57,020 nucleotides of DNA from the NCBI RefSeq assembly GCF_900129125.1, contig NZ_FQVJ01000026.1, forward strand, positions 1-57,020. Reading direction: 5' to 3'. A program made the translations under genes and the position numbers. Below the pieces are notes generated by a model, which searched no databases, had not been told where the DNA came from, and was given only the letters and a program-made list of their open reading frames with translations. Shown here piece after piece: positions 1,276 to 24,825 of the stretch. How positions within the stretch are numbered: the first letter of the stretch is position 1; each line of letters starts with the position of its first letter. The DNA comes from Acidocella aminolytica 101 = DSM 11237 (GTDB taxonomy: Bacteria > Pseudomonadota > Alphaproteobacteria > Acetobacterales > Acetobacteraceae).

Positions 1276-1323
1276 AAGATTTCCTCCCATTGTGCCGATA
1301 TTTTGAGGTCACGCCTCTCCTGT

Positions 1324-1378: not shown

Positions 1379-3880
1379 CTACGCAGCGTCAGCATGCACT
1401 ACGCCAAGAAGCTTCGCCTGTAGCGCTTCGTCTGCGGCCAACGCCTCTGAAGATCCTTCATAGGCAACCTGACCATTAACCAGCACTACGGCACGGTCTA
1501 CAATCGACAAGACCGATTCCGCGTGATGCTCTACGATAATCAAGCTCGCCTTGCTGCGCAGCTTTACAACCGCTTCCATCACTTCCTTCACCACTGAGGG
1601 GGCCAAGCCTTCAAATGGTTCGTCGAGAAGAATGATACGGCTTGGAACCATCAGCGCCCTGGCCACTGCCACCATCTGCCGCTCCCCTCCGGACAAAGCC
1701 GAAGCTCGAGACCGTGACAGCACTTTTAATTTTGGAAACAGCTCATACACGTCTTCCAAAGATGCTCCCCCTGGACGCATGGCCAAACGTAGATTCTCCA
1801 GAACCGTGAGGTTCGGGAACAAACGCCGCCCTTCAGGCACCAGGGAAAGCCCGCGCCGGTTGATCTCAAACGGCTTACGGCCTGTAATGTCCTTGCCGTC
1901 GAGTAGAATCTCACCGCCGCTGATATCTACACTGCCCATCAGGCTGTTCAGCGTCGTGGTCTTACCCACACCGTTACGACCCAGAATGGCGACTGCCTCG
2001 CCTTCGCGTACCGTGAAACTGACGCCATCAATAATCACGCTGCCTGCATAGCCCGCCGTGAGGTTTTTTACTTCCAGGACCGGTTTGCCGATTTTGGCCT
2101 GCTCCATTGGGTGAATTTCATGCGCAGCTTCCTTCTCGGCCCCCAGATACGCATCGATCACAGCAGGATTTGCAGCAACTTCAGCCGGCTTTCCATCCGC
2201 AATCAGGGCCCCTTGATGCAACACAGTAATTCGGTCAGACAGCGTCAACACGCGATCCATATCATGCTCTATCAAAAGTACCGCATGCGCGTCGGCCAAG
2301 CGGCGGATCAAAGCACCGACTACCTGCCGGTCCGCCTGCGCAAGCCCGGCCAGCGGCTCGTCCAGCAGCAACAGCTTCGCATCTGTCGCTAGGGAAATTG
2401 CAATCTCAAGAAGTCTTTGCTCGCCATGCGACAGATTTGAACATATTTCCGCTGCCCTTTGATCAAGCCCAACGGCTGCCAGCAAGGTCCAGGTCCGTGC
2501 ATTGATCTGATCGATCTTGTATGCATCGTGAAAATACTGAATTGGACTCAACTTATGCCTGCGCTGCACGGCAATACGGACATTTTCAAACGCCGTTAGA
2601 TTCTTGAATACACTTACAATCTGAAATGAACGACTCAGCCCCATCCTTACCCGCTGGTACGGCTTCAGTGCCGTAATTTCCTTTCCGGCAAAGTTGATCT
2701 GTCCTTCAGTTGGCTTAAGCAACCCCGTTAGAAGATTAAAAAAAGTGGTCTTTCCTGCGCCATTCGGACCAATAAAGCTGTGCAGTTGGCACGGCATTAC
2801 ATCAAGATCTATATTGCGAGCTGTATAAAGCGAACCAAATCGGTTGGTAAGGTTACGTACTGTCAAAACAGGTACATTCATGTCCACACCTTTAAAGCTC
2901 GGCTGATAAGGAGCAATCACCTCCGGACGGTTTGGAATTTCATTACGAGTCAGCGTCCATCGTGACTTTCCAATCAAACGCTGCACCATTCCTTGAATGC
3001 CTTCAGGTGAAGCAAGAGCAAACCCCATGATAATCGGCGCAAAGATCAGCCACCAATTCGCGGTCAGCAAGGAGAGCCTGTCCTGAAGTGTAATGAAGAC
3101 GATAGCACCCCAAAGTGGCCCCAAAAACTGGTGTACGCCTCCTAGGACCGTCATCAGCAGAGCATCACCTGCGTGCTCCCAGCCCAGATTGTCCGCATAC
3201 GCTCCTTGCAGCAACAGCGCCAGCAACCCCCCGGCAATCCCCACCACTACACCGCACAAGCAAAACGCAACCAGCTTGAGGTGCCCGGTGTTATAACCCA
3301 GGCAGGACATACGCTGTTCATTATCCCGCAACGCCTGTAAGGCCCTGCCGAACGGCGCATGTGCTAGACGCCACAACAGACCAACCACAGCCACAGCAAG
3401 ACAAACTGTAAAAATGTAAAGCCGTAAAGGCGTTGTCAGCACGGAAAGCGGGACATTCTGTAAGCCATTCTCACCGCCGGTAACAGCCGTCCATTTAAAA
3501 GCAACCTCAAATGCAATCTGTGAAGCTGCGAGAGTCAGCAATGAAAAATACAAACCACGGCGTCGCAGAATAAGCAGGCCAAGCAGGAACGCCAACACCA
3601 GAGATGCCAACACCGCAAATCCTAGTGCCAGAAATTCATTATCTCCCGTGTTTATCATGAATACCGCAACAAAATAGGTGGCGCAGCCAAAGAACACAGA
3701 AGCCCCAAAAGGCACCAGCCCGGTATAGCCAACCAGCATATTCACGCCGAAACCATACAACACGTAAATTGCGATTTCGGTCAGTTTACTTAACGGCATA
3801 CCGACCGCGGGGCCAATGAACCCAAGAAGCACCAGAACCGCCCCCAAGATCAGGACGGGATTTTTCAGAACGGCGTTCAT
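1379..3880 (-). CDS. Fused LivM-LivG-LivF: ABC permease plus two ATPases in one protein
   Basis: A single 833-aa protein that carries a whole branched-chain-type permease and both ATPases. Residues about 1-310 are a LivM-type permease with many membrane segments (for example ALRDNEQRMSCLG and the GGVHQFLGPLWGA loop). ATPase 1 (about 335-590) has Walker A GPNGAGKT near 371, signature LSHGEQ near 483 and Walker B LLLLDEP near 503. ATPase 2 (about 600-833) has Walker A GRNGVGKT near 634, signature LSGGERQ near 729 and Walker B IILLDEP near 749. The ATG at 3880 overlaps the livH stop in ATGA form; an in-frame ATG lies at 3895. Methionines at the domain joins (MNVPVLTVRN, MEQAKIGKP) look like the old livG and livF starts, suggesting fusion by loss of stop codons. 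It works with LivH and the binding protein; the substrate is probably an aromatic or hydroaromatic acid (inference from context). Confidence 0.9.
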   Translation of the reverse strand: MNAVLKNPVLILGAVLVLLGFIGPAVGMPLSKLTEIAIYVLYGFGVNMLVGYTGLVPFGASVFFGCATYFVAVFMINTGDNEFLALGFAVLASLVLAFLLGLLILRRRGLYFSLLTLAASQIAFEVAFKWTAVTGGENGLQNVPLSVLTTPLRLYIFTVCLAVAVVGLLWRLAHAPFGRALQALRDNEQRMSCLGYNTGHLKLVAFCLCGVVVGIAGGLLALLLQGAYADNLGWEHAGDALLMTVLGGVHQFLGPLWGAIVFITLQDRLSLLTANWWLIFAPIIMGFALASPEGIQGMVQRLIGKSRWTLTRNEIPNRPEVIAPYQPSFKGVDMNVPVLTVRNLTNRFGSLYTARNIDLDVMPCQLHSFIGPNGAGKTTFFNLLTGLLKPTEGQINFAGKEITALKPYQRVRMGLSRSFQIVSVFKNLTAFENVRIAVQRRHKLSPIQYFHDAYKIDQINARTWTLLAAVGLDQRAAEICSNLSHGEQRLLEIAISLATDAKLLLLDEPLAGLAQADRQVVGALIRRLADAHAVLLIEHDMDRVLTLSDRITVLHQGALIADGKPAEVAANPAVIDAYLGAEKEAAHEIHPMEQAKIGKPVLEVKNLTAGYAGSVIIDGVSFTVREGEAVAILGRNGVGKTTTLNSLMGSVDISGGEILLDGKDITGRKPFEINRRGLSLVPEGRRLFPNLTVLENLRLAMRPGGASLEDVYELFPKLKVLSRSRASALSGGERQMVAVARALMVPSRIILLDEPFEGLAPSVVKEVMEAVVKLRSKASLIIVEHHAESVLSIVDRAVVLVNGQVAYEGSSEALAADEALQAKLLGVVHADAA

Positions 3881-4746
3881 TCGAAGCGCTCCCATTGCTC
3901 GCCAAACAATCCCCGCGGACGCAGCAGCAGCACAACAGCCATCAGCATATACATCGCAGCCGTGGAGGCTTCAGGCAGAAATTGAATCGTTAGTGATTGT
4001 ACAAGACCAACCGCCAGCCCGGCCACGATGGCTCCCGCATAAGAGCCAAGCCCACCAATGGTGACCACGACAAAGGCGGGCATAATCGCGTTTGTTCCCA
4101 TTGTCGGCGCCACTGTCCAAATCGGCGCCGCGAGGAAACCAGCGATAGCCGCCAGCAAACAGCCCAGCCCAAACGTGCCCGTCAAAACATGCGGCAAATT
4201 AATTCCAAGCAGTTGAACCATCTGCGGATCACGTGACCCGGCGCGCAAAACCCGCCCAAAAGGCGTGAAGTTCATAAACATCCAGAACCCGAACAAAATC
4301 ACGATGGCGCACACCATGATCGCAACACGATAGCTGGCAATAATGAACGGCCCCATTATGATAACGCCATTCAACCAGGCTGGCGCACTAAATGGTTGTC
4401 CCTGCGGGCCCCAAATGGCGCGGATCACTGCTTCCGCCAGCAATGCCAATCCAAATGTCACAACCAAACTTATTAATGGTTCTTTATCATATAGTCTGCG
4501 GATCAGCAGAACTTCAGTTATCATGCCGATCACGCAGACAATGACCAAGGCCAGCGGTATCCCCCACCACCCCATTAGATTGAACAAGGTCAGTGAAAAA
4601 TAAGCTCCCAGCGCAAAGAACACGCCATGTGCGAAATTAACGATGCCAAGCAGGCCAAAAATAATAGACAGCCCCAGGGCGATCAAAACATATAGAAACC
4701 CCAATGCAAGACCGTTTCCAGCCTGCATGATCATCATATCGAGCAT
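3877..4746 (-). CDS. livH: LivH-type ABC transporter permease
   Basis: Inner-membrane permease of the branched-chain amino acid (HAAT) ABC family, 289 aa, the usual LivH length. The hydrophobic helices and the motif LGLSIIFGLLGIVNFAHGVFFALGAY near the N-terminus and GGLGSYAGAIVAGLAVG near the C-terminus are LivH hallmarks. It pairs with the LivM part of the downstream fused protein, with which it overlaps by 4 bases, so translation is probably coupled. AGAGGAG precedes the ATG at 4746. Despite the symbol, the substrate need not be an amino acid: HAAT systems next to aromatic-degradation genes usually carry aromatic acids. Confidence 0.9.
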   Translation of the reverse strand: MLDMMIMQAGNGLALGFLYVLIALGLSIIFGLLGIVNFAHGVFFALGAYFSLTLFNLMGWWGIPLALVIVCVIGMITEVLLIRRLYDKEPLISLVVTFGLALLAEAVIRAIWGPQGQPFSAPAWLNGVIIMGPFIIASYRVAIMVCAIVILFGFWMFMNFTPFGRVLRAGSRDPQMVQLLGINLPHVLTGTFGLGCLLAAIAGFLAAPIWTVAPTMGTNAIMPAFVVVTIGGLGSYAGAIVAGLAVGLVQSLTIQFLPEASTAAMYMLMAVVLLLRPRGLFGEQWERFE

Positions 4747-4768: not shown

Positions 4769-6019
4769 TTACAGCGGCGTCATATGGCAGGCACTGTCCG
4801 CCGCCGTGCCAAAAGCCTTTTCGGCTGCTTCATTATTTTCAGGAATTGAGCGGAGGACATCGAAATAGTTCCAATTATCTGGAATATGCTTTTTCACACC
4901 CACAACCAGGAAGCGATGCACAAGCTGGTTATTCCACTTATCAAAATGCACGGTAATACCGCCATCCTCCTCATGCCAATTCTGCAGTGCTTCAACAATG
5001 GCATCAGGTTTGGTTGACCCCGCTGCATTTATCGCCTGGAATAAAATTTTTGCTGAATACCAGCCCATCCAAGCTTTATCTGCGGCCGGACGGTTATATT
5101 TAGCCTGATAGGCTGCGGCAAAAGCCTTGTCGGAAGGTGAGTTATTTGGGTCTTTGTAATACCACAACGTCGTATATGTACCAGCGACATTATCCTTGCC
5201 CACAGCCCAAAGATCCGTATCCCCCACCGCAATTTCAGTGAAGGGAATCTTATCGCTCATCCCAAACTGCTTCCATTGCTTCAAGAAGTTCGACAGATCC
5301 GCGGAGGTCAGACCACCGATGATTAAATCCGGCTTAGCTTCACGAATTTTGAGGATGTAAGAGCTGAAATCTGAGCTACCCAAAGGTACGGAGTCATCCC
5401 CTACAACTGTTCCCCCAATCCCGGCCAGAAGCTTTTTGAACGAGGACGCAATGTCTTGGCCAAACGCATAAGACGAAGTAATAAAGTACCAGCGCTTACC
5501 AATGCTTTGCAGATAAGGCAGCATCGCCGCTGCCTGCACCGGTACAGGCGGCTGCAGCCGGAAGGTGTACGGATTGCACTTCGCCCCCGTGATTTCCTCC
5601 GCCGCAGCATTATTGATCACGAACGGAATCTTATGCTGTCCAGCAACGGCTTCTTCGGCCAACGCGTCGGAGCTGAGCGACCCGCCCAGCAGCGCGACAA
5701 CCTTATTCTGCTGAATCAATTGCAGTGCATTCTGCCCTGCCCCCTGTGCGGAGGGTTCGTCATCCCACACAATCTCTGCCGGCCGCCCCAGCAGCTCATT
5801 ATTCAACTGCTCCAGCGCCAAAAAAGTCCCTTGTTGGAGATACTGCGCCTGCACTGCAATGGAGCCTTCCTTCGCTTGCAACAGGCCAATACGAATCGGC
5901 TCCGCCGCACGTGCGATATGCGGCATCGCCAACGTCGAGGCCGTTGCCGCTCCTGCAGCCACCCCCAACAGACGGCGGCGGCCAGTCATGAGAAACGGCT
6001 GAGTCTTATCGTGATTCAT
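4769..6019 (-). CDS. HAAT-family ABC transporter substrate-binding protein
   Basis: Periplasmic solute-binding protein (Peripla_BP_6, LivJ/LivK-like), 416 aa. The N-terminus has a twin-arginine-like leader, TGRRRLLGVAAGAATASTLA, with a likely ARA cut near residue 39, then IRIGLLQAKEGSIAVQAQY typical of the first lobe. Motifs such as VVALLGGSLSSDALAEEAVAGQHKIPFVI fit the ligand-binding fold. It is the first gene of the minus-strand transporter operon (binding protein, LivH, LivMGF, porin) and starts from the intergenic region that also drives the hydroaromatic operon, so the two are probably co-regulated. Confidence 0.9.
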   Translation of the reverse strand: MNHDKTQPFLMTGRRRLLGVAAGAATASTLAMPHIARAAEPIRIGLLQAKEGSIAVQAQYLQQGTFLALEQLNNELLGRPAEIVWDDEPSAQGAGQNALQLIQQNKVVALLGGSLSSDALAEEAVAGQHKIPFVINNAAAEEITGAKCNPYTFRLQPPVPVQAAAMLPYLQSIGKRWYFITSSYAFGQDIASSFKKLLAGIGGTVVGDDSVPLGSSDFSSYILKIREAKPDLIIGGLTSADLSNFLKQWKQFGMSDKIPFTEIAVGDTDLWAVGKDNVAGTYTTLWYYKDPNNSPSDKAFAAAYQAKYNRPAADKAWMGWYSAKILFQAINAAGSTKPDAIVEALQNWHEEDGGITVHFDKWNNQLVHRFLVVGVKKHIPDNWNYFDVLRSIPENNEAAEKAFGTAADSACHMTPL

Positions 6020-6365: not shown

Positions 6366-8084
6366 ATGGTCGAAAACGCCACCAACTTGCCACCAGTCCG
6401 CCGGGTGGACGTGCTCGTCATTGGTTCCGGCGCCGCAGGGCTTGCCGCCGCCGTTACAGCCGCCGTGCGCGGGCTATCCGTGCTGGTCGCGGAAAAGGCT
6501 CCACAGTTCGGCGGTACCACCGCCTTTTCTGGCGGCTGGCTCTGGGTGCCCCACAATCCGGATGTCCGCGCCGCCGGCATTGAGGAATCGGAGGAAGAGC
6601 CGCGCCAGTATCTGCGCAATATCCTGGGCAAACGATATGACGACCGCAAAATCGACACCTATTTAAAAGCCGGCCCGCAAATGGCCGACTTTTTCATCCG
6701 CAATACAGAAGTCAAATTCTTGCCGGGTTCCGCGGCACCAGATTTTCATGGCCAGTTGCCGGCTGCGGCCAAGGGTGGACGCTCCATGGTCGCTGCGCCT
6801 TATGACGGCAATGTGCTCGGCCCGCTTCTCTCTAGGCTACGCCAGCCGATTCCCGAAACGACCTTCCTCGGCATGGGTATCGCCTCCGGAGCGGATCTTT
6901 ACCATTTCCTGCACGCCACCAGAAAGACATTATCTTTTCTACATGTTTCAAGACGCGTGACTAGGCATTTGAAGGATCTCGTCATCCACCGACGATCCAC
7001 GCAACTCGTTAACGGCAACGCCCTCGCCGCCCGACTACTTCGCTCGGCGGCTGATAAGGGGGTGGCATTGCATGAAAATCTAGAGGCCACACGCTTGACT
7101 ATTGAAAATGGTCGTGTCACCGGCGCCATTCTATCTGGCCCACAAGGCACTTGTCCTATCAAAGCCCAGGCGGTGATTCTCGCCACCGGAGGCTTCCCAC
7201 ACGACACACTGCGCCAGCAAAGTCACTTTCCGCACACAAGCACCGGTACGCCTCACGCCTCCGCCGCGCCGCAAGAAAATAACGGTGGGGGCCTGCGCCT
7301 GGGTGAGCAAGCAGGCGGCCATGTGCGGGAAGACCTTGCCGATTCCGGCGCATGGTCACCTGTCTCCTTACCCCCGCGCCGTGACCTCACAACCGGCCGA
7401 TTTCCTCATCTTGTTGACCGCGCCAAGCCCGGTCTCATCGCCGTCACCGCCGACGGCAAGCGCTTCGCGAACGAATCGGGCCCGTATCATGATTTCATGC
7501 GCGCTCTTTTCGCCGCCTTACCACCAGGCGAGCCTGTGCAAGCTTGGCTCATCTGCGACACAATCTTCCTCCATCGCTACGGTCTCGGCGCGGTCAAGCC
7601 CTTCCCAGTTCCGAAAGGTTTTTATCTGCGCAAAGGGTATCTGAAGCGTGGCAAAACCATCACGGACCTGGCCACCGCCTGCGGCATTAATCCAACAGTT
7701 CTGACCCAGACCATCGCCACCCATAATGCAGGCGTGACACGCGGTGAGGACATTGAATTCGGCCGTGGCTCTACGCTATTCCAGCGTGTCAGCGGCGACC
7801 CGGATATCGGCCCTAATCCCTGCCTCGCACCCATCGCCAAAGCGCCATTCTACGCTGTGAGAATAGTCCCCGGCAGCCTCGGCACCTTCGCTGGACTGGA
7901 TACGGACGAACACGCCCGCGTGCTGGACGAAAACAGCCAGCCCATCCCCGGCCTCTTCGCCGTCGGCAACGACATGTCGAGCATCATGGGCGGCCACTAC
8001 CCCAGCGGCGGCATCACACTCGGTCCGGCCATGACCTTCGGCTGGCTCGCCGCCAATTTCATCGCAAATCAACAGGAAAGTTAG
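6366..8084 (+). CDS. KstD/fumarate-reductase-type FAD dehydrogenase (desaturase) 1
   Basis: Flavoprotein of the FAD_binding_2 superfamily, 572 aa. The N-terminal dinucleotide motif VIGSGAAGLAAA (about 18-29) and FGGTTAFSGGWLW are followed near the C-terminus by AVGNDMSSIMGGHYPSGG and TLGPAMTFGW, which match 3-ketosteroid delta-1-dehydrogenases. The KstD catalytic Tyr and the Gly four residues on (Tyr487/Gly491 in the Rhodococcus enzyme) correspond to Y545 and G549 here. Such enzymes introduce a ring C=C next to a carbonyl and pass electrons to the respiratory chain or a carrier. It starts a tight operon with NIPSNAP, AroE-like and TIM-barrel genes and a second flavoprotein, so a non-steroid alicyclic keto acid is the likelier substrate (inference). 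AGAGGGG lies just before the ATG. Confidence 0.85.
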   Translation: MVENATNLPPVRRVDVLVIGSGAAGLAAAVTAAVRGLSVLVAEKAPQFGGTTAFSGGWLWVPHNPDVRAAGIEESEEEPRQYLRNILGKRYDDRKIDTYLKAGPQMADFFIRNTEVKFLPGSAAPDFHGQLPAAAKGGRSMVAAPYDGNVLGPLLSRLRQPIPETTFLGMGIASGADLYHFLHATRKTLSFLHVSRRVTRHLKDLVIHRRSTQLVNGNALAARLLRSAADKGVALHENLEATRLTIENGRVTGAILSGPQGTCPIKAQAVILATGGFPHDTLRQQSHFPHTSTGTPHASAAPQENNGGGLRLGEQAGGHVREDLADSGAWSPVSLPPRRDLTTGRFPHLVDRAKPGLIAVTADGKRFANESGPYHDFMRALFAALPPGEPVQAWLICDTIFLHRYGLGAVKPFPVPKGFYLRKGYLKRGKTITDLATACGINPTVLTQTIATHNAGVTRGEDIEFGRGSTLFQRVSGDPDIGPNPCLAPIAKAPFYAVRIVPGSLGTFAGLDTDEHARVLDENSQPIPGLFAVGNDMSSIMGGHYPSGGITLGPAMTFGWLAANFIANQQES

Positions 8085-8087
8085 AAA

Positions 8088-8699
8088 ATGACCAAACGCT
8101 ATGAGCTCGCCACCCTCTCCATTCAGATGGGCAGCGCTCCGAAATTCATCCAGGGTGCCGAAGCTTATGTAAAGGAAGGCAAAGGCCGCCTGCTCGGCGC
8201 CTGGGTCTCTGATGTCGGCAACCTGAACAAACTCGTCCTCCTCCGTGAATTCGAGAATGACGCGGAATTGCAGCAGGAACGTCAGCGCGGCCTCACCGCT
8301 TCAAACCCTTTCGGCGCCGCGGAATTCCTCACCAGGCTGGAGATGGAAAGCTACGCCCCCTTCCCCGACCTTCCGCCCGTGGAACCCGGTAGCTTGGGCA
8401 GTCTTTATGAAATCCGAAGCTATGTCTTAAAAACCGGGGGCCTGTTGCCCACCTTCGAAGGCTGGGCAGAGAAACTGGCCGAACGCACCGCTATCTCCCC
8501 GCTAACCATCGCGCTTTACGGGCTGGATGGCACGCCCCGTATCACCCATATCTGGCCTTACGCGGATGCCAATGCCCGCTTTGCCAAGCGAGCTGAATCC
8601 GTGGCCGCCGGTGCTTGGCCACCGCGCAGCGCCGTGTGGCTTACGCCTGAAATGGTCTCTGGTCTTTACGTGCCCACAACCATTTCCCCGCTGCGCTGA
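8088..8699 (+). CDS. NIPSNAP-family protein with two domains
   Basis: 203 aa, two tandem NIPSNAP (dimeric alpha/beta-barrel) units: YELATLSIQMG...LVLLREFEND (about 5-75) and YEIRSYVLKTGGLLPTFEGW...ITHIWPYADANARFAKR (about 106-170), each ending with the typical xHxWxY-like or xREFxx strand. NIPSNAP proteins are often found beside catabolic dehydrogenases; the biochemical role is unknown. The start is 3 bases after the upstream stop with AGGAAAG as ribosome-binding site, so it is translated with the flavoprotein. A role as an accessory ring isomerase or product-channelling protein is speculation. Confidence 0.8.
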   Translation: MTKRYELATLSIQMGSAPKFIQGAEAYVKEGKGRLLGAWVSDVGNLNKLVLLREFENDAELQQERQRGLTASNPFGAAEFLTRLEMESYAPFPDLPPVEPGSLGSLYEIRSYVLKTGGLLPTFEGWAEKLAERTAISPLTIALYGLDGTPRITHIWPYADANARFAKRAESVAAGAWPPRSAVWLTPEMVSGLYVPTTISPLR

Positions 8700-8726
8700 A
8701 GCCAAAAGCCCCAAGGAAACGTTCAA

Positions 8727-9548
8727 ATGAACCTAACAACCTCCCTCAACGGCGCCACGTCTGTCATTGGCATCGTCGGTGACCCTATCGCTCAGGTAAA
8801 ATCCCCTGCGGGCATGACAGCTGGCCTAACCGCGCGCGGGCTCAATTCCATCGTCGTGCCTTTCCATGTCACGCCCGATAATCTCACGACTTTCGCTACC
8901 GGCGTTTCGCTGGCCAAGAACCTTACCGGCCTTATCGTCACCGTGCCGCATAAATTCGCCTTCTACGACCTCTGTGCCACCAGTTCTGCCCGCTCCAAGC
9001 TCATGCGCACCGTCAACGTGCTACGCCGAAACGAGGATGGTAGCTGGTATGGGGATATTTTCGATGGCGAGGGCTTCGTCGTCTCACTCATCCGTGGCGG
9101 CGGCGCGCCCCAGGGCAAGCGCGTTCTGCTAGTGGGGGCAGGCGGAGCCGGCACCGCTATCGCCATGGCACTTCTCGACGCCGGCGTGACAGAACTCGCC
9201 ATTCACGATGGCAATGCGGAACGCCGCAACACTCTTCTTACCCAACTTGCCCCTGTCGCCGATGGCCGCCTCACCCAAGGTAGCGCGGACCCATCGGGGT
9301 TCGACATCGTGGTCAACGCCACCCCGTCCGGCATGCGCTCGAGCGATCCTTTGCCGGTTGATGTCTCCCGCCTGTCTCCCACCGCCTTCGCGGCGGACGT
9401 GATCACCGCCCCGATGGAAACGCCCTTCCTGCAAGCCGCCAAATCGCTCGGCTGCGGCACCCGTACAGGCATTCAGATGTTTAACAGCGTTTGTGAACTG
9501 ATGCTGGATTTCTACACCCCGTCCGCCAGCAACACTCAGGCCGCCTAA
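8727..9548 (+). CDS. Shikimate/quinate dehydrogenase-like protein
   Basis: AroE-superfamily NAD(P)-dependent dehydrogenase, 273 aa, normal length. The N-terminal substrate domain keeps GDPIAQVKSP, TVPHK with the catalytic Lys76, TVNVL with Asn97 and DGEG with Asp113; the cofactor domain has VGAGGAGTA (about 136-144). One of the two shikimate-contacting serines is replaced (Val24 where AroE has Ser14, E. coli numbering; Ser26 is kept), and the second cofactor strand ends in HDG rather than NRT, which may favour NAD over NADP. These changes and the operon context suggest a catabolic enzyme acting on quinate, shikimate or a related hydroaromatic acid rather than biosynthetic AroE. AAGGAAA precedes the ATG. 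Confidence 0.82.
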   Translation: MNLTTSLNGATSVIGIVGDPIAQVKSPAGMTAGLTARGLNSIVVPFHVTPDNLTTFATGVSLAKNLTGLIVTVPHKFAFYDLCATSSARSKLMRTVNVLRRNEDGSWYGDIFDGEGFVVSLIRGGGAPQGKRVLLVGAGGAGTAIAMALLDAGVTELAIHDGNAERRNTLLTQLAPVADGRLTQGSADPSGFDIVVNATPSGMRSSDPLPVDVSRLSPTAFAADVITAPMETPFLQAAKSLGCGTRTGIQMFNSVCELMLDFYTPSASNTQAA

Positions 9549-9549
9549 G

Positions 9550-10365
9550 ATGCGCCCTTACTCCCTCGCCCATCTAACAGTTCTCAACTTGCCGCCGCCG
9601 GCGGTCATCGAAACCGCCCACGCTGCGGGCTATACCCATGCAGGGCTGCGCCTGCTCCCCGCCTCCCCCGGCGGGGTGTTCTACGACCTCGCCAATAACG
9701 CCCCGCTGCTGCGCGAAACCCAGTCCCGGCTGAAGGACACCGGCATCGAAATCTTCGATGTCGAAATCGTCCGTCTCGGTCCGGATTTCCGGGTTGAATC
9801 CACCTTCCCCTTCCTGGACAACGCCGCCACCCTCGGTGCGCGCGCCGTGCTTGTGGCAGGGGACGACCCTGACCAATCTCGCCTTGCCGCCAGCTACGCC
9901 GCCTTTTGCGAGGCCGCCGCGCCACGCAACCTAACTGGCGACATCGAGTTCATGCCGTGGACCGAGGTGCCCGACATCGCCGCCGCACGCCGCTTGGTGA
10001 AAGCCGCCGGTACCCCCGCCAATGCTGGCATCCTTGTGGACGCTCTGCATTACGGCCGCAGTTCCGGCGGGCCGGAGGCCGTCGCCGCCATTCCACGCAA
10101 TTTGCTGCATTATGGCCAAATCTGCGACGCCCCGGCGGAAATCCCCACCACCGTCGAAGGTCTTATCCAAACCGCCCGGCAGGAGCGTCTGCTCCCTGGC
10201 ACTGGCGGTATCGACATTCTCGGTATGCTCGGCGCTTTGCCGCCGGAACTGCCGCTTAGCGTCGAACTTCCCAACTTCAAACTCGCCCCCGCGCGCGGCC
10301 CGCTAAACTGGGCGAAGGAATGCCTCGCCGCCGCCCGCAAAATTGCCGAGAAGGCCACACCATGA
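9550..10365 (+). CDS. TIM-barrel sugar isomerase/dehydratase-fold protein
   Basis: 271-aa protein of the xylose-isomerase-like TIM-barrel (AP_endonuc_2) superfamily. Candidate metal ligands are spaced as in the family: Glu133 (DIEFMPW), Asp164 and His167 (LVDALHYGRS), Gln190 (YGQICDAP) and Glu239 (SVELPN). The same fold includes 3-dehydroshikimate dehydratases (AsbF/QuiC-like), sugar-phosphate epimerases and myo-inosose dehydratases. With an AroE-like gene one base upstream, conversion of 3-dehydroshikimate to protocatechuate is an attractive but unproven role. The stop overlaps the next start (ATGA), so expression is coupled. Confidence 0.78.
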   Translation: MRPYSLAHLTVLNLPPPAVIETAHAAGYTHAGLRLLPASPGGVFYDLANNAPLLRETQSRLKDTGIEIFDVEIVRLGPDFRVESTFPFLDNAATLGARAVLVAGDDPDQSRLAASYAAFCEAAAPRNLTGDIEFMPWTEVPDIAAARRLVKAAGTPANAGILVDALHYGRSSGGPEAVAAIPRNLLHYGQICDAPAEIPTTVEGLIQTARQERLLPGTGGIDILGMLGALPPELPLSVELPNFKLAPARGPLNWAKECLAAARKIAEKATP

Positions 10366-12047
10366 AATCCGCCTATGACGTCATCGTGCTGGGCTCTGGA
10401 GGGGCAGGCATGGCTGCTTGCCTCTTCGCCCGGCTCAACGGTCTTTCCACCTTGCTAGTTGAACGTACGGAATATCTCGGTGGCACCACCGCCTTTTCCG
10501 CAGCAACTGCCTGGGTACCGGGCTCCCTGCTTGCCGCCAGCGTCGGCGCCCCGCCAGACGATATTACGCAAGCCCGAACCTTCCTGAACGAAACCGTTGG
10601 TAACCATTCGAACGCGACCATGCGTGATGCCTTTTTGCACTGGGGCCCGCAGGCTATTGCCCGACTGCAAGGCGAAACCCAAGTACAATTCCGCGCCCGC
10701 CCCTTGCACCCGGACTATATCCAGGACGCCCCTGGCGCTACATTACGCGGCCGCGCCCTGGAGCCTCTTCCCTTCGATGGCCGCAAGCTCGGCAAACGGC
10801 TGGATCTCATTCGCCCGCCCATCCCCGAATTCACTATTCTCGGCGGACTGATGATCGACCGGGACGACATTGCCCATCTTCTGAAGATGACGAAGACCTC
10901 TGAAAGCTTTCTCTACGCCGCCAAACTCATCGGCCGCTACGGGATCGACCGCCTCACCCATAAGCGCGGCACGAGGTTAGTAATGGGCAACGCCCTCATT
11001 GGCCGTCTGCTCTCCTCGCTGGACGCAACAGGTGCAGACATCGTCACCCAGACGGAAACCGAAACGCTGCTTAACGAAAACGGCCGCATCACTGGCGTCC
11101 GCCTGCGCCAGAATAGCCGTGTGTTGGACATCATAGCCCAGCGCGGCGTGGTGATGGCCACGGGCGGCTTCAATCGCCATCCCACCCGTCGCGCGGAGAT
11201 GCTGCTCCAACCCACCGCCGCTTATTCCCCCAGCGCACCAGGCCATACGGGCGAGATCCACGATCTAGCCTTGTCCCTCGGCGCGCATTACGGCGAAGGT
11301 GCCATGGACAATGCCTTTTGGGCGCCGGTCTCCATCCGTCGCCGGGCGGACGGCACTACCGCCGTGTTCCCGCACTTCGTGCTGGACCGCGGCAAGCCTG
11401 GCACTATATCGGTAAACGCGGCGGGACGGCGTTTCGTCAACGAGTCTACCTCCTATCATCTCTTCACCCGCGCCATGTATGAGTCCAACAAAACCGTGCC
11501 CACCATCCCCGCTTTCCTGATCGCGGATGCCGAGGCGCTGCGTAAATACGGGCTCGGCATGGTCCGCCCCGGCGGACGTCGGCTAAAACCCTTCCTAGAT
11601 GACGGTTATCTGGTGGAAGCCCCAACTCTTTCCGCTCTTGCCGATAAGCTCGACATCAATGCGGCGGGGTTAGAGGAAAGTGTGAAGCGCATGAACGAAT
11701 TTGCCCGCACCGGGGTGGATACGGAATTCGGACGCGGCAGCACAGATTATCACCGCGTGAATGGCGATGCCACGCACGGCCCAAACCCTAATATCGGCCC
11801 CATCACCGCAGCGCCCTTCTACGCGGTGCGGCTGCTGCCGGGCGATATCGGGGCCGCGACCGGCATGGTTACTAACGCCTACGCCCAGGTCATGAAACGC
11901 GACGGTACTCCCATTCCCAGTCTCTATGCGGTGGGGAATGACATGCAGTCCGTCATGGGCGGCGTCTATCCGGGCCCCGGCATAACAGTGGGCCCCGGCC
12001 TGGCCTTCGCTTACGCCGCCGCTACTCATTTAACCGGCAGCCTTTAA
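10362..12047 (+). CDS. KstD/fumarate-reductase-type FAD dehydrogenase (desaturase) 2
   Basis: Second KstD-like flavoprotein, 561 aa, paralogous to the one at 6366. It has VIVLGSGGAGMAA (about 7-19), LGGTTAFSAATAWVPG, and C-terminal AVGNDMQSVMGGVYPGPG followed by TVGPGLAFAY, keeping the KstD-like Tyr (Y536) and Gly (G540). I chose the ATG at 10362, which overlaps the previous stop as ATGA and follows GAGAAGG, over a longer in-frame reading from 10320 inside the TIM-barrel gene. Two such enzymes in one operon recall the consecutive desaturases that aromatise 4-oxocyclohexanecarboxylate to 4-hydroxybenzoate; pobA lies 4 kb away. Confidence 0.85.
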   Translation: MKSAYDVIVLGSGGAGMAACLFARLNGLSTLLVERTEYLGGTTAFSAATAWVPGSLLAASVGAPPDDITQARTFLNETVGNHSNATMRDAFLHWGPQAIARLQGETQVQFRARPLHPDYIQDAPGATLRGRALEPLPFDGRKLGKRLDLIRPPIPEFTILGGLMIDRDDIAHLLKMTKTSESFLYAAKLIGRYGIDRLTHKRGTRLVMGNALIGRLLSSLDATGADIVTQTETETLLNENGRITGVRLRQNSRVLDIIAQRGVVMATGGFNRHPTRRAEMLLQPTAAYSPSAPGHTGEIHDLALSLGAHYGEGAMDNAFWAPVSIRRRADGTTAVFPHFVLDRGKPGTISVNAAGRRFVNESTSYHLFTRAMYESNKTVPTIPAFLIADAEALRKYGLGMVRPGGRRLKPFLDDGYLVEAPTLSALADKLDINAAGLEESVKRMNEFARTGVDTEFGRGSTDYHRVNGDATHGPNPNIGPITAAPFYAVRLLPGDIGAATGMVTNAYAQVMKRDGTPIPSLYAVGNDMQSVMGGVYPGPGITVGPGLAFAYAAATHLTGSL

Positions 12048-12160
12048 GGATGCACCGGCTTCCTCCCATTTATCAGACGGCATGGAGGAGGCCACGCCTA
12101 GTCAAGAAAAAGGGAAACGCCAGGGCAAGACCATCAGAGCAGCGGAACCTGCAGCGCGAG

Positions 12161-12606
12161 ATGGGCCGAGTGCTGGTCACTGGCGGCAGTGGCATTCGGC
12201 CTTACATCGTCTACGGCCCCGGCAAAGGCTCCGGCATGAGCGCCAGCACTAGGTCGGCCTACCGCGCGGCACTCCAGGGGCAGCATTTTGAAATCAAATT
12301 CAACAGCCGCGTCGGCTTCGTCCATGTCCGGACGTTGCTAACACCTTTGCTGCTGCCATCCAAGCGGAGCGCCAAAGCGCGGAGGTCCTCAATCTCTGCG
12401 GCGAAACCGCCAGTGTTTCGGCTTTCATCGCGACGCTGTCCACGCTGGCGCCTGAGGCGAAGGTAGACTGTGCCGGCCCACCAATGCCCATCGCGCCTGA
12501 ACTTTCCTCCGGCCCCTTACCTGCATGGCTGACAGATCTACCTGTCACAACATTGGAGCAAGGCATCGCCCGAACTTTGGCCAGTTTGCGGACTTCCAAC
12601 ATATAG
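12161..12606 (+). pseudogene. Decayed NAD-dependent epimerase/dehydratase gene
   Basis: Remnant of an extended-SDR (NAD-dependent epimerase) gene. It opens with MGRVLVTGGSG, the Rossmann start, then jumps directly to RPYIVYGPGKGSGMSAST...EIKFNSRVGFVHV from the C-terminal half: about 150 codons are missing. After VHVR one base has been lost near 12330; the following frame reads DVANTFAAAIQAERQSAEVL and continues through LNLCGETASVSAFIATLSTL to LASLRTSNI and a TAG at 12604-12606. The gene lies at the 3' end of the hydroaromatic operon and would have been its last enzyme. Confidence 0.8.
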
Positions 12607-12651
12607 GGGCCGGACCAAGCAACTTGGCTTTATTCTTTTGCAGCGCCCGCC

Positions 12652-13491
12652 TCAGCCTGAATCACCCAGGGACTTCGCGGCGGAAAGCTCTGCCTCCCGG
12701 CCCAGCCGCCAAGTTCCGCCGAAATAGACCGAGCCCAGGCTTGCCGCCGAAAGCTCCGCCGCCGAGGCCAGCAGATCCGGCACCAGCGCGCGCAGCCTCT
12801 CCTCCGGCAACCGCATGGCAGGCCCAGCAATACTCAAAACCCCAATCGTCCGTGCACCATCCTTTGTACGTATCGGCGTCGAAATGGCCGACAGCCCTGG
12901 TGCGGAATTTTCCACCACCAACGCATAACCATCCCGCCGGGCTAGCTCGATGCGTTGTAGCAGCGCCTGCACGGTCGCCACCGCATTAGGCCCCAACTGG
13001 CGCGGATCACCAAAGCCCTGGCGGCTCACCAGCCGTACTGCTTCCTCGTCGGACATGGTGGAAAGCCACGCATGACCGGAAGAGGTTGATGCCAGATGCG
13101 CCTCCGCGCCGGCATCAGGGTCGTACCGGAACCCTGTCCGCGCCCCTTGCGCCTTCGCCACCCAAGTCAGCCGCTCATTGCTGACAATAGAAAGCCGCAC
13201 AAGCTCGCCCGCCTTCTCCGCCAGCGCATCTAATATCGGCTGAGCAATATCGAGAATCCCGTTAAGGGACAGGAAGGTCTGCCCCAGAGCCGAAATTTTC
13301 AGCGTCAGCCGATAGATTTCTGAAACCGGATCCTGCTCCACATACCCCAGCCGGTTAAGATCAGCCAGCAGCCTGTGCGCGGCGCTGCGCGGTATATCCA
13401 GCCGCTCCGCAATCACGTAAAGCTGCAGGCCGCCAGGGCTATGGGCCAAGCATTCAAGAATATTCAGGGCACGGTCGAGTACGGAAGACAT
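12652..13491 (-). CDS. IclR-family transcriptional regulator
   Basis: 279-aa IclR regulator: N-terminal winged helix-turn-helix (SVLDRALNILECLAHSPGGLQLYVIAERLDIPRSAAHRLLADLNRLGYVE, residues about 2-55) and C-terminal effector domain (ISTPIRTKDGARTIGVLSIAGPAMRL). I chose the ATG at 13491 because AAAGGAAC lies 6-13 bases upstream; a TTG at 13527 would overlap the preceding gene. It is co-transcribed with the Gfo/Idh/MocA gene (20-base gap) and convergent with the flavoprotein operon. It probably reads the palindromes at 6285 and 14601 and controls both divergent halves of the cluster. Confidence 0.88.
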   Translation of the reverse strand: MSSVLDRALNILECLAHSPGGLQLYVIAERLDIPRSAAHRLLADLNRLGYVEQDPVSEIYRLTLKISALGQTFLSLNGILDIAQPILDALAEKAGELVRLSIVSNERLTWVAKAQGARTGFRYDPDAGAEAHLASTSSGHAWLSTMSDEEAVRLVSRQGFGDPRQLGPNAVATVQALLQRIELARRDGYALVVENSAPGLSAISTPIRTKDGARTIGVLSIAGPAMRLPEERLRALVPDLLASAAELSAASLGSVYFGGTWRLGREAELSAAKSLGDSG

Positions 13492-13511
13492 ATCCCGTTC
13501 CTTTCCAAATT

Positions 13512-14570
13512 TTAGGCAGGCTGGCAATTGCGTGCCGGGGTTACGGTCCGGCCGGTTCGCGCGGCCTCGAGCACCGCCATGGTGGCTGCCAACGTCGCCG
13601 CGCCATCCTTGCCGGAGACCATGGGCTGTTCCTCCCGCCGCGCGACGCGCAGAAAATGGTCAAGCTGTAACGCCAGCGGATCACCCGGCTCATAAGCCAA
13701 TGGCTGGGCGGAAAGCGGCTGTGTCCAGCCTTTCTGGCCTGCATAATGCCAACGGATCAGCCCCGGCAGTTCCAACGCTGCCTCTGTTCCGCACAGCCGA
13801 TAACATTGGCCTTGGTGCCGCGCGAAATCCTTATTCTCACCGGACGTCTGGTCCCAGCACCAGGGCGAGGGGGTCGCGTCAGACAAAGTTAGCGTCGCCA
13901 GCGCGCCGGAGGTAAAGCGCAGTAACACCGCCGCGGTATCCTCCACCTCAAAGCCCCGCGCCGCATTGCTGGTCACGGCCTGCACGCTTTCAATTTCACC
14001 GCATAGATAACGCAGCGCATCAATATCATGCACCAGATTGATCAATACCGGCCCGCCGCCCGACTGGGTGCGCCAGGGCACGTTGAAATAAGCGTCAGGT
14101 TTGCACACGGTCACATCCGCATTCACTGAAACCAGCCGCCCCAGTCCACCCTTGGCCAGCAAATCCCGCGCCGCGCGCATAACCGGATTATGCCGGCGGA
14201 AATGCCCCACTAACAGCGGCACATCCCGTTCCTCCGCCAAGTGCGCCAGGGCAAATGCGTCCGCGACATTATCCGCCAGCGGCTTTTCCACCAGCAGCGG
14301 GATATTACGGGCGATGCAAGCTCCCGCCATCTCAACATGCAGCGCATTTGGTGAGGCAATAATGACCGCATCCGGCCGCCACTCATCCAGCGCCCGCACA
14401 AGATGTTCACTATACCTCACCCCCAACATCTCAGCCTGAGCCTGGGCCTGGGGCATTGGGTCGATAATTCCCTTCAGCCAACCTCGCCTAGCCGGAAGCG
14501 CCTGAATTAACCTGATATGCGCCTGACCGATAACCCCCGCCCCGCAAACCGCAATCGAAAGACCGGACAT
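13512..14570 (-). CDS. Gfo/Idh/MocA-family oxidoreductase
   Basis: 352-aa NAD(P)-dependent dehydrogenase. The N-terminal Rossmann domain has VCGAGVIGQAHI, IIDPMP, IASPNALHVEMA and EKPLAD with the catalytic Lys96; the C-terminal half has SGGGPVLINLVHDIDALRYL, the usual substrate/oligomer region of inositol-dehydrogenase-like enzymes. Members oxidise secondary alcohols of sugars, cyclitols and related rings, which fits oxidation of a ring hydroxyl in a hydroaromatic acid pathway (inference). GAGGAAGT precedes the ATG. Upstream lies the second IclR-like palindrome. Confidence 0.88.
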   Translation of the reverse strand: MSGLSIAVCGAGVIGQAHIRLIQALPARRGWLKGIIDPMPQAQAQAEMLGVRYSEHLVRALDEWRPDAVIIASPNALHVEMAGACIARNIPLLVEKPLADNVADAFALAHLAEERDVPLLVGHFRRHNPVMRAARDLLAKGGLGRLVSVNADVTVCKPDAYFNVPWRTQSGGGPVLINLVHDIDALRYLCGEIESVQAVTSNAARGFEVEDTAAVLLRFTSGALATLTLSDATPSPWCWDQTSGENKDFARHQGQCYRLCGTEAALELPGLIRWHYAGQKGWTQPLSAQPLAYEPGDPLALQLDHFLRVARREEQPMVSGKDGAATLAATMAVLEAARTGRTVTPARNCQPA

Positions 14571-14649: not shown

Positions 14650-16053
14650 CTAAACTTTCGCGGGCTTGCCGCGAGACACATTAGCGCCAGCCTCACGCGA
14701 TAACGTCAGAGAATCCGCAACACCCAGCAGAGATACCAGCGCCACCAGCAGGAATGCGATGCGAAACGGCAGGGCGGCCGACGCATCCGGCGGTGCCATC
14801 ACCTCCCCCAATCTCCAGGAAATGGCACCCAGCGCAATTCCCAGTCCCATGGCAAGTTGGAACAAGGTGGAAAACAACGTATTCGCCGCAGTCATTTCGG
14901 CTTGCGGGACATCCGCGAAAGCCAGCGTATTGAAAGCGGTAAATTGCATCGACCGAGTCGCACCGCTGACGAACAGGATCGCGCAAATAGCCGGCACTGG
15001 CATGCCACCGCCAATGACCGCGCAAGCCGCGATTGCCAACGCGTTCAAAAGCCCGTTTACGATCAACACCGGGCGAAATCCAAACCGACGCAGGATGGGG
15101 GTGGTGATGGTTTTCATCGCCAAATTCCCCGCAAAAACCGCCATCAACATAGAGCCCGCCGCGAAAGCGCTATAGCCAAAGCCAATCTGGAACATCACCG
15201 GCAACAGAAACGGCACAGCGCTGACCCCCATGCGGAATAGTGATCCGCCCCAAATTGTGACTGCAAAGCTTTTCAATTTCAGGGCTGACAAATCTAGCAT
15301 CGGATGCGTCACCCTGCGCAAATGCAGGGTGGCCATAACCAGCAAAACAATTCCCGCAGCGGTCAACAGCAACACCAAATACCATGCCAGACGTGGCGCC
15401 CCCACCAGTTCCGCCACATAAAGCAGGCAGAACAAGCCGGCGCTGCATAAGGCAAATCCAAGCCAGTCGAACCCCGCCCCGCGCTCATGCCGCGTATCCG
15501 GCACAACCAGCCAAGCCAGTATAAAAGCCACCACGCCCAAGGGCAGGTTAAGATAGAAGATCCACCGCCAGTTGGCATAATCCGCGATCCAGCCACCCAG
15601 AGGCGGACCCAGCACAGGCGCGACAAGGGCAGGCCAAGTCAGAATGGCGATGGCGTCTATGAGTTTCTCCTTCGGGGTAGCGCGCAACACCACCAACCGC
15701 CCCACGGGCACCATCATCGCCCCGCCTATCCCTTGCAGAATACGCAACATCACGAATTCCGGCAGGCTCTGGGCAAGCCCGCACAGCAAGGAAGTCACTG
15801 TGAACAACGCAATCGCCAGGCCGAAAATCCGGCGCGCGCCGAACCTGTCCGCGACCCAGCCGCTGGCGGGAATAAAAACCCCCAGCGCCAGCATGTAAGC
15901 ACTTACACCGCTATTCAATGCCACGGGGCTGACCGCGAAGCTATGCGCCATCTGCGGCACTGCCGGGGTGATCACAGTGGCGTCCAGGTTTTCCATAAAA
16001 AACGTCCCCGCCACCAGCAGGGCGATCGCGGTTTGTTTGTTGAACCGGCTCAC
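14650..16053 (-). CDS. DHA2-type MFS transporter (EmrB/QacA-like)
   Basis: Inner-membrane drug:H+ antiporter-type transporter with about 14 membrane helices. The motif FFMENLDATVITPAVPQMA in helix 1 and GWVADRFGARRIFG in loop 2-3 are DHA2 signatures; WRWIFYLNLPLG is also typical. I favour the GTG at 16053 (VSRFNKQT, with GGAGAAG upstream), giving 467 aa; the GTG at 16065 (MEKHVSRF) has no good ribosome-binding site. It precedes the Gfo/Idh/MocA-IclR pair on the same strand with a 79-base gap. It may export a toxic aromatic intermediate or import substrate; DHA2 members mostly export. Confidence 0.85.
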   Translation of the reverse strand: MSRFNKQTAIALLVAGTFFMENLDATVITPAVPQMAHSFAVSPVALNSGVSAYMLALGVFIPASGWVADRFGARRIFGLAIALFTVTSLLCGLAQSLPEFVMLRILQGIGGAMMVPVGRLVVLRATPKEKLIDAIAILTWPALVAPVLGPPLGGWIADYANWRWIFYLNLPLGVVAFILAWLVVPDTRHERGAGFDWLGFALCSAGLFCLLYVAELVGAPRLAWYLVLLLTAAGIVLLVMATLHLRRVTHPMLDLSALKLKSFAVTIWGGSLFRMGVSAVPFLLPVMFQIGFGYSAFAAGSMLMAVFAGNLAMKTITTPILRRFGFRPVLIVNGLLNALAIAACAVIGGGMPVPAICAILFVSGATRSMQFTAFNTLAFADVPQAEMTAANTLFSTLFQLAMGLGIALGAISWRLGEVMAPPDASAALPFRIAFLLVALVSLLGVADSLTLSREAGANVSRGKPAKV

Positions 16054-16068
16054 ATGCTTCTCCACACA

Positions 16069-16160: not shown

Positions 16161-17480
<1,320 letters not shown>

Positions 17481-17487: not shown

Positions 17488-18285
17488 TCAACCCAGCGCC
17501 ACGCGCGCCAGATGCGCCGCAGCCGCCTGCAGTTCCGGCAGAGCCGTCTGTAACAGCCAATCCTGGCTTCGGTGCGCGGATTGGGTGGCGAGGTTAAGCG
17601 CCGCCACAACCTGCCCTTCAGCCCCACGCACCGGCACGGCAATCGACCGCAGCCCAGCTTCCAGCTCGCCATCAATCATAGCAAACCCCTGGCCGCGAAC
17701 CTTCTCCAACTCCGTGCGCAACGCTGCTGCCTGGGTCAGCGTTCGCGGGGTGCGGGCGGGAAACGGCGCCTGTGTGAGAAACCGCTCCAACTCAGCCTCC
17801 GGCAGCTCAGCCAGCAAGGCCCGCCCCATGGAGGCGCAATAGCTGGGCAAGGTAGCGCCAGCGAATAAAGGCACCGAAATAATGCGCGACGTTTCCGCAC
17901 GGCAGACATACACAACGCAGTGATATTGGCTGCGTGTGTCGAACATGGCGAGCGAGCTGGATTCCCCCAGCCGGTCACGCAGGGCGTCCACCACCGCCTG
18001 CCCTGCGCGGACCAGTGGATTCCCCACGGAAAAAGCGCGTGCCATGGGCAGCAGGGCCGGACACAACGCATAGCTCGTGCCTTCGGCAACCACATAACCA
18101 AGGCGCTCCAACGTAAACAAACAACGCCCGGCCGCCGACCGGGACATCCCGGTGGCCTTGGCGGCCTGCGTTACCGTGAGGCGTGATTGCGTCTCGAAAG
18201 CTGCCAAAACCTCCAACCCACGGGCCAGGGAGGTCATGAAACGCGGGTCTTCCATGGACGATTTTTCCTTGACTTCTCCTGCCAT
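17488..18285 (-). CDS. IclR-family regulator, PcaR/PobR/PcaU type
   Basis: 265-aa IclR protein. DPRFMTSLARGLEVLAAFE followed by LTVTQAAKATGMSRSAAGRCLFTLERLGYV is the characteristic start of the PcaR/PcaU/PobR subfamily, which bind beta-ketoadipate, protocatechuate or 4-hydroxybenzoate; the effector domain contains SIAVPVRGAEGQVVAALNLA. Three starts are possible (18333, 18285, 18255); I give 18285 (MAGEVKEK, with GGAG upstream), since an N-terminal extension before the DPxFM motif is normal in PcaR. It is divergent from pcaIJ and convergent with pobA, and the CGATAATCG box lies in its promoter. Confidence 0.88.
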   Translation of the reverse strand: MAGEVKEKSSMEDPRFMTSLARGLEVLAAFETQSRLTVTQAAKATGMSRSAAGRCLFTLERLGYVVAEGTSYALCPALLPMARAFSVGNPLVRAGQAVVDALRDRLGESSSLAMFDTRSQYHCVVYVCRAETSRIISVPLFAGATLPSYCASMGRALLAELPEAELERFLTQAPFPARTPRTLTQAAALRTELEKVRGQGFAMIDGELEAGLRSIAVPVRGAEGQVVAALNLATQSAHRSQDWLLQTALPELQAAAAHLARVALG

Positions 18286-18299
18286 CGGCGCGATATCTC

Positions 18300-18328: not shown

Positions 18329-18358
18329 ACCATTACAGGTTAGAACGCAAGAGGGAAA

Positions 18359-19701: not shown

Positions 19702-19709
19702 CCGCGCCT

Positions 19710-19795: not shown

Positions 19796-19815
19796 CTTCT
19801 TCAAAGGAACCCTTC

Positions 19816-24822: not shown

Positions 24823-24825
24823 GCC

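Follow-up and report, generated by a model that had tools for sequence, protein, structure and literature searches.

What is the function of the operon that lies beside the pob and pca genes of Acidocella aminolytica 101 = DSM 11237? We analyzed a stretch of 57,020 nucleotides, here called the window, which is a single 57-kb contig (NZ_FQVJ01000026.1; C103) in a 3.96-Mb genome. On its plus strand, the window contains, in this order, a KstD-like flavoprotein (FAD1), a NIPSNAP-family protein, an AroE-like dehydrogenase, a single-domain TIM barrel (AP), and a second KstD-like flavoprotein (FAD2). Since the intergenic gaps are only 3, 27, 1, and -4 nucleotides, we regard the five genes as one operon; the last value reflects a 4-nucleotide overlap of FAD2 with the AP stop, with 10362 as the likely FAD2 start and 10320 as the alternative. 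A sequence-only reading of this DNA had described these genes next to pobA and pca, facing a Gfo/Idh/MocA dehydrogenase and accompanied by porin and HAAT uptake genes, and all of them were located; an IclR-family regulator and the remnant of an epimerase-type gene were found in addition (Table 1). On balance, we find it somewhat more probable than an even chance that the operon serves the catabolism of reduced shikimate-family ring carboxylates and feeds an aromatic-acid route.

Public bacterial genomes were scanned with the NIPSNAP alignment alone, and the best 80 of 190 confirmed places were kept. Genes of the relatives were located by tblastn with the window proteins, and FAD1 was counted as present at 45% identity or more; the thresholds for the parts and the definition of linkage were chosen after the data had been seen. 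FAD1 was present in 50 of the 80 NIPSNAP-selected loci, and these 50 module loci contained the AroE-like gene (50), AP (48), FAD2 (45), the IclR gene (36), the Gfo gene (32), and an epimerase-type gene (18). The distance to NIPSNAP was at most 300 nucleotides for FAD1 in 48 of the 50 loci and for AP in 42. The two module loci lacking AP were one that stops at a contig end soon after NIPSNAP (L080) and one with pobA in the position of AP (L102). The remaining 30 loci contained a single AroE-like gene, at a contig end (L114), which may mark a truncated module, and none of the other module parts. The gene set is a widespread conserved module and more than a chance grouping, and the co-occurrence of the flavoproteins with NIPSNAP and AroE-like genes that the sequence-only reading had put forward for a neighborhood search was borne out.

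The module was detected in alpha-, beta-, and gammaproteobacteria, and its hosts include Rhizobium, Bradyrhizobium, Bosea, Paracoccus, Xanthobacter, Azohydromonas, Sphaerotilus, Diaphorobacter, Marinobacterium, Thiothrix, Nitrincola, and Acinetobacter; on Rhodococcus plasmids, relatives of FAD1 and AP are adjacent. The transporters linked to the module vary among fused HAAT, other HAAT, tripartite tricarboxylate, and TRAP types, and relatives of the fused HAAT gene adjoin the module in Bradyrhizobium, Bosea, Xanthobacter, and Acidimangrovimonas. Among named contigs, the nearest relatives of the window NIPSNAP were from Acidocella facilis ATCC 35904 (81% identity) and from a metagenome-assembled genome labeled Proteobacteria BP5.bin5 (73%). 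Within the genus, the NIPSNAP gene was found in three of nine sampled genomes, indicating that the module is an accessory trait. A search of the open-access literature, outside of which most subscription literature falls, found no paper describing this gene set. The combination, which had been presented as one not recognized as described, is not peculiar to this genome. The enzymes themselves are of known kinds; what is new to us is their combination and the probable substrates.

Two observations on related loci may be recorded here. Close NIPSNAP relatives (45 to 52% identity) also occur in module-free neighborhoods in Streptomyces, Amycolatopsis, Paraburkholderia, and others (L068, L077, L078, L105, and 26 further loci), some of which contain a distant gene resembling FAD3, a FAD1 relative described below. 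A Klebsiella pneumoniae chromosome in a plasmid collection carries AroE-like, FAD2, NIPSNAP (annotated as such), FAD1, and AP genes near cyoABCDE (L055, 12000-17400); its flavoprotein genes are split into several pieces, by either sequencing error or decay.

FAD1 and FAD2 scored above the cut-offs of the NCBIfam models NF004789 and NF009477, respectively. Residues were examined in alignments of the window proteins with extracted sequences picked for diversity (34 of 50 NIPSNAP, 33 of 45 AP, 24 of 50 FAD1, 21 of 43 FAD2, and 23 of 47 AroE-like sequences), and KstD positions were counted by hand on the 4c3x and 8jbz alignments. We take the catalytic residues of KstD to be Tyr119, Tyr318, Tyr487, and Gly491. 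The equivalents of the last three were present in all 25 aligned FAD1 sequences (Y374, Y545, and G549), and those of all four in all 22 aligned FAD2 sequences (Y119, Y365, Y536, and G540, numbered from start 10362). Because this Tyr/Tyr/Gly set is kept and the closest PDB entries are steroid dehydrogenases (7p18, 4c3x, and 8jbz), FAD1 and FAD2 could be true 3-ketosteroid dehydrogenases acting in steroid or terpenoid ring dehydrogenation. The matching steroid KstD models of NCBIfam were, however, all below cut-off (best scores of 417 bits for FAD1 and 464 bits for FAD2, against 789 for NF009478), and no steroid-ring cleavage gene was recognized by eye in the conserved neighbor clusters. Clustering of the neighboring open reading frames yielded many wrong-frame shadow clusters, and only clusters with recognizable proteins were used. 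The steroid explanation, rejected on the family cut-offs, is extremely improbable.

The pair of flavoproteins also recalls the chc genes for cyclohexanecarboxylate aromatization. In a route of that type, FAD1 and FAD2 would doubly desaturate 4-hydroxy- or 4-oxocyclohexanecarboxylate to 4-hydroxybenzoate for PobA and Pca, with AP and NIPSNAP as accessories. Both proteins score on the ChcC1 model NF053676 (307 bits for FAD1 and 288 for FAD2) and the ChcC2 model NF053677 (508 and 429 bits), and SDRs (short-chain dehydrogenases/reductases) of a related cluster and of contig C22 of this genome score on ChcB2 (179.5 and 163.4 bits; cut-off, 350). In addition, pobA adjoins the module here, directly follows NIPSNAP in Rhizobium Leaf306 (L102), and lies near NIPSNAP in Nitrincola (L125). 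The ChcC scores are nevertheless far below the curated cut-offs of 1000 and 900 bits, and a simple 4-oxo route has no need of AP, which is present with its dehydratase-type active site in 48 of the 50 module loci. No pobA match was found in the A. facilis block seen, nor a P450 among the window genes scanned; neither search extended to the rest of the respective genome. These results make a chc-type route unlikely. The analogy with cyclohexanecarboxylate degraders that the sequence-only reading had drawn is one of chemistry and not of membership, because the ChcC1 and ChcC2 cut-offs were missed.

We investigated AP, a protein of 271 amino acids, by profile alignment, active-site comparison, and structure prediction. 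AP did not reach the two-domain QuiC/QsuB model NF042435, which combines a TIM barrel with an HPPD-like domain (32.5 bits against 1200), a strict cut-off passed by 0 of 250 genomes of the same order and 0 of 49 module genomes. Profile alignment (hhalign) of AP with four QuiC proteins gave a probability of 98.7% and an E value of 1.5e-16. Ten active-site residues of QuiC1/QsuB are listed in PMC7442255. When mapped onto this list, AP was identical at eight positions (R64, L97, E134, D165, H168, Q191, R210, and E239) and differed at two, with Met for L136 and Ala for S206. Each mapped position holds one residue in at least 31 of the 34 AP sequences. By eye, another TIM barrel of the same genome, used as a control, keeps only about three of the ten, which are metal-type residues. 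In the predicted model of AP (pLDDT, 96.5), the best Foldseek match was QuiC1 (5hmq), and VIA-align gave Z scores of 31.6 for Lmo2234, 29.8 for IolI, 29.0 for QuiC1, and 23.6 for AsbF. Judging from these residues, AP may work like a 3-dehydroshikimate dehydratase, a likeness of working for which class membership is not claimed.

The score of IolI, an inosose isomerase, raises the possibility of a cyclitol or deoxy-/amino-cyclitol route, in which AP would be an IolI-like isomerase and the Gfo/Idh/MocA protein an inositol-type dehydrogenase. The latter fell below the cut-off of the inositol dehydrogenase IolG model (TIGR04380; 128.8 against 355 bits). AP keeps the equivalents of QuiC R64 and R210, at which IolI was not compared, and the linkage to QuiC, catabolic shikimate dehydrogenase, pob, and pca genes in several lineages also speaks against a cyclitol substrate. 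Moreover, cyclitol catabolism, to our knowledge, has no need of KstD-type desaturation. We consider a cyclitol route very unlikely.

The AroE-like protein scored below the cut-off of the AroE shikimate dehydrogenase model TIGR00507, and its nearest PDB entry was 4k28. We take S14 and S16 of the E. coli enzyme to be the carboxylate-binding Ser pair of AroE and K65 and D102 to be its catalytic Lys and Asp. The catalytic pair (K76 and D113) and the second carboxylate Ser were kept in all 24 aligned sequences, and the first carboxylate-binding Ser was replaced by Val in all 24, unlike in the AroE of contig C84 of the same genome. For NIPSNAP, the PF07978 score exceeded the gathering cut-off of 22.3 bits, and a PDB sequence search gave no match. 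Its predicted model (pLDDT, 93.3) exhibited a tandem ABM-like fold, with Foldseek matches to putative ABM monooxygenases, an anthrone oxidase-like protein, chlorite dismutase, and coproheme decarboxylase. The IclR-family protein probably regulates the module.

A catabolic shikimate dehydrogenase and QuiC are absent from the window and are joined to the module in some relatives; in this genome they are present on another contig (C68; L144, 1-6370). On this contig, a catabolic shikimate dehydrogenase that scored 424.5 bits on NF009201 (cut-off, 235) and a two-domain QuiC with 754 bits, short of the curated 1200, are accompanied by an MFS transporter and, as recognized by eye, a porin-like gene and a TetR-like gene; also by eye, the start of the porin-like gene resembles that of the window OprB porin. 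A dehydroquinase gene lies on C84. Its absence from the window, which had been held against a plain quinate route, therefore says little. A stronger argument for another function of the cluster is the plain shikimate route on C68: the module is not the organism's only way from shikimate to protocatechuate and is thus an addition.

The module might still be a second plain quinate or shikimate route, in which the AroE-like protein and AP make protocatechuate from shikimate and the flavoproteins are incidental. The pair resembles a shikimate dehydrogenase with its dehydratase, the AP active site is near that of QuiC, and two genomes of the same order (G139 and G203) have partial loci with Gfo, IclR, NIPSNAP, and AP genes and no FAD1 or FAD2 match in the 20 kb seen. 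On the other hand, FAD1 stays as close to NIPSNAP as described above, more often than AP does, the AroE-like protein lacks the first carboxylate-binding Ser, and most module genomes already possess QuiC (see below), as this one does on C68. We consider a second plain route quite unlikely, and the plain quinate route was rejected as a full explanation because the genome has that route elsewhere and the desaturases are a constant part of the module.

Contig C22 (5.4 kb; L150, 152-5160) carries a second partial set, consisting of a flavoprotein (FAD3, 48% identical to FAD1), an SDR, a second NIPSNAP (39% identical to a Paracoccus gene annotated NIPSNAP), an HpaA-like AraC regulator (below cut-off), and another TIM barrel. 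The FAD3 and SDR part of this set adjoins the first set in Paracoccus, Xanthobacter, Acidimangrovimonas, Azohydromonas, and Rhizobium.

We examined the link of the module to aromatic and shikimate catabolism at three levels. At the level of the locus, pob, pca, or QuiC genes were found in 9 of the 50 module loci and in none of the 30 others (one-sided Fisher test, 0.011). A single A. facilis contig carries a TetR-like gene (by eye), QuiC, a catabolic shikimate dehydrogenase, a second TIM barrel, a porin, HAAT genes, the module, IclR, MFS, a PcaR-like gene, and the pca block, with no Gfo match at the module locus. In a genome of the genus of Gluconacetobacter dulcium (G145), pcaI, pcaJ, pcaF, a putative transporter (by eye), a catabolic shikimate dehydrogenase, AP, and QuiC lie on one strand, and the G. 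dulcium locus has the same order as far as its edge. At the level of the genome, 49 genomes were searched, that of one of the 50 module loci (L095) not being searchable, and QuiC was found in 43, each at an E value of 1e-178 or better; no counterpart count from the 30 control genomes stands beside this figure. Genes for cleavage of the protocatechuate ring were found in 48 of the 49, the 3,4-dioxygenase in 33 and LigA in 15 of the other 16.

At the level of the order, near-full-length QuiC (E value below 1e-150) was found in 50 of 250 sampled genomes. The loci around 68 NIPSNAP places outside the genome of the window were examined, and module parts were present in six genomes besides our own. 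QuiC was present in all seven genomes with the module (five) or a part of it (two), compared with 43 of 243 others (one-sided Fisher test, 9e-6), a group that may include a module lacking NIPSNAP, since the other parts were sought only in genomes with a NIPSNAP match, which 187 genomes lacked.

Taken with known KstD and QuiC chemistry and with gene adjacency, from which we infer the order of reactions, these results suggest the following route. The acid would be imported by the OprB porin, which probably serves outer-membrane uptake of the substrate, and by the HAAT transporter. Likely substrates would be hydroaromatic acids more saturated than shikimate, e.g., dihydroshikimate or 3,4-dihydroxycyclohexanecarboxylate. 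The AroE-like protein, the Gfo/Idh/MocA protein, or both would oxidize a ring alcohol to a ketone, and FAD1, by KstD-type chemistry, would introduce a double bond beside the ketone to give an enone resembling 3-dehydroshikimate. AP would then remove water to yield an aromatic ring, either protocatechuate or a near analogue, and FAD2 would carry out a second desaturation, aromatizing substrates without a leaving hydroxyl. With dihydroshikimate, the sequence would run from 3-dehydro-dihydroshikimate through 3-dehydroshikimate to protocatechuate. NIPSNAP may be an isomerase or tautomerase, and IclR is a probable sensor of the acid or an intermediate. The product would enter the pca route, protocatechuate directly and 4-hydroxybenzoate through PobA. 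The core of the sequence-only reading, that a cyclic carboxylate is turned into an aromatic acid for pob and pca by desaturases and an AroE/dehydratase-type pair, is backed by the genomic context and the active-site residues, whereas the substrate, like the choice of dehydrogenase and the roles of NIPSNAP and IclR, is something we still infer.

Several observations weigh against this reading. FAD1 has Phe at the position of KstD Tyr119, and AP has Ala at that of QuiC Ser206. The Z scores of AP for IolI and QuiC1 amount to a tie, which leaves room for an isomerase role. That a second dehydratase is needed beside QuiC is our assumption. Over the thresholds used, 41 of the 50 module loci had no pca, pob, or QuiC match in the flanks examined, which reach at most 10 kb in either direction, and six of the 49 module genomes had no QuiC match. 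The order-level association with QuiC weakens to p = 0.006 if near relatives are merged into three. The protocatechuate 3,4-dioxygenase was commoner in the control genomes (28 of 30) than in the module genomes; ring-cleavage genes are therefore compatible with the reading and not diagnostic, and we dropped the dioxygenase as evidence. Finally, related clusters have an intact copy of the epimerase-type gene, which was seen in 18 of the 50 module loci, but the copy in the window is broken and has lost most of its N-terminal part and its frame. This strain may therefore have only part of the pathway.

Table 1. Features of the window, with the match or observation on which each assignment is based
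Feature	Coordinates	Strand	Basis
OprB-type porin	1..1290	-	Pfam OprB 302.6 bits
HAAT ABC transporter, permease fused to two ATPases	1379..3895	-	two Walker A motifs, by eye
HAAT ABC permease	3877..4746	-	by eye from sequence; relatives adjoin module elsewhere
HAAT substrate-binding protein	4769..6019	-	Pfam Peripla_BP_6 245.6 bits
FAD1, KstD-like flavoprotein desaturase (NF004789/PRK06134 type)	6366..8084	+	NF004789 813 bits, cut-off 747
NIPSNAP-family protein, predicted tandem ABM-like ferredoxin fold	8088..8699	+	PF07978 82.3 bits
AroE-like NAD(P)-dependent dehydrogenase, altered substrate pocket	8727..9548	+	TIGR00507 145.8 bits, below cut-off 200.2
AP, single-domain TIM barrel, QuiC-like dehydratase candidate	9550..10365	+	hhalign to QuiC family; active-site residues; Foldseek
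FAD2, KstD-like flavoprotein desaturase (NF009477/PRK12843 type)	10320..12047	+	NF009477 857 bits, cut-off 758
Decayed NAD-epimerase-type gene remnant	~12164-12591	+	tblastn with 23 intact copies from module loci
IclR-family regulator	12652..13491	-	PF01614, PF09339; PcaR/PcaU/PobR subfamily 127.8 bits, below cut-off 284.75
Gfo/Idh/MocA dehydrogenase	13512..14570	-	PF01408, PF22725, PF02894
MFS (DHA2-type) transporter, between module and pob/pca	14650..16065	-	TIGR00711 234.6 bits, cut-off 230.2
pobA, 4-hydroxybenzoate 3-monooxygenase	16185..17480	+	TIGR02360 650 bits, cut-off 538.7
pca block (protocatechuate beta-ketoadipate route)	17488..26512	.	NCBIfam and Pfam matches

The pca block contains a PcaR-like regulator, pcaI, pcaJ, pcaF, an aldo-keto reductase gene, pcaQ, pcaD, pcaH, pcaG, and a pcaB-like gene. 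The aldo-keto reductase gene (DkgB-like, below cut-off; 21015-21848, plus strand) occupies the interval between pcaF and pcaQ, where the A. facilis block is without a match. Farther along the window, an open reading frame of 2464 codons at 31944-39338 (minus strand) encodes a Gly/Ser-rich protein that matched no Pfam family at 1e-6. Judged by eye, its repetitive passenger and barrel-like C-terminal end point to a large surface protein of the autotransporter type. Three proteins with DJ-1/PfpI domains lie close together at 48732-55370, and two of them have AraC-type DNA-binding domains.

Tentatively, and with confidence somewhat short of even, we propose that the module represents a widespread, undescribed desaturase-dependent branch of hydroaromatic catabolism, in which KstD-type flavoproteins would return fully saturated shikimate-family acids to the level of 3-dehydroshikimate and a new class of single-domain QuiC-like dehydratases would complete aromatization, extending the range of ring acids beyond the classical quinate/shikimate route. 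If this is true, it gives a function to a NIPSNAP subfamily and to members of two large families, NF004789 and NF009477, whose NCBIfam name is just 'FAD-dependent oxidoreductase', and it provides a new candidate class of dehydratases for protocatechuate formation. Saturated shikimate-type acids are products of reductive quinate metabolism, and the module would explain their return to aromatic catabolism.

Among known systems, the KstD enzymes (4c3x and 7p18) belong to the same family as the module flavoproteins and share the catalytic Tyr/Tyr/Gly set, but the latter are below the steroid cut-offs, FAD1 has Phe for Tyr119, and the genomic context is one of aromatic-acid catabolism. The shikimate dehydrogenase-family protein 4k28, presumably from P. 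putida, is the closest solved relative of the AroE-like protein, and both have Val at the first carboxylate-Ser position. The qui/qsu systems, which comprise a shikimate or quinate dehydrogenase, dehydroquinase, and QuiC/QsuB, resemble the module in having an AroE-superfamily dehydrogenase, a QuiC-like active site, and protocatechuate as the likely product, and they are physically joined to the module in A. facilis and to AP in Gluconacetobacter. In contrast to them, the module adds two flavoprotein desaturases and NIPSNAP, uses another AroE subfamily and a single-domain TIM barrel, and occurs besides QuiC in the 43 genomes noted above. Cyclohexanecarboxylate aromatization by the chc genes of Sinomonas cyclohexanicum (Yamamoto 2021) is outlined in the introductory part of PMC9795900. 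In the chc pathway, a ring alcohol is converted to a ketone, and two desaturations lead to an aromatic hydroxy acid and on to protocatechuate, much as proposed here. The module differs in that its flavoproteins are far below the ChcC1 and ChcC2 cut-offs, in its AroE-like, QuiC-like TIM barrel, NIPSNAP, and Gfo proteins, and in the absence of a P450 among the window genes scanned. The module thus resembles parts of the chc and qui routes in its working and is a member of neither.

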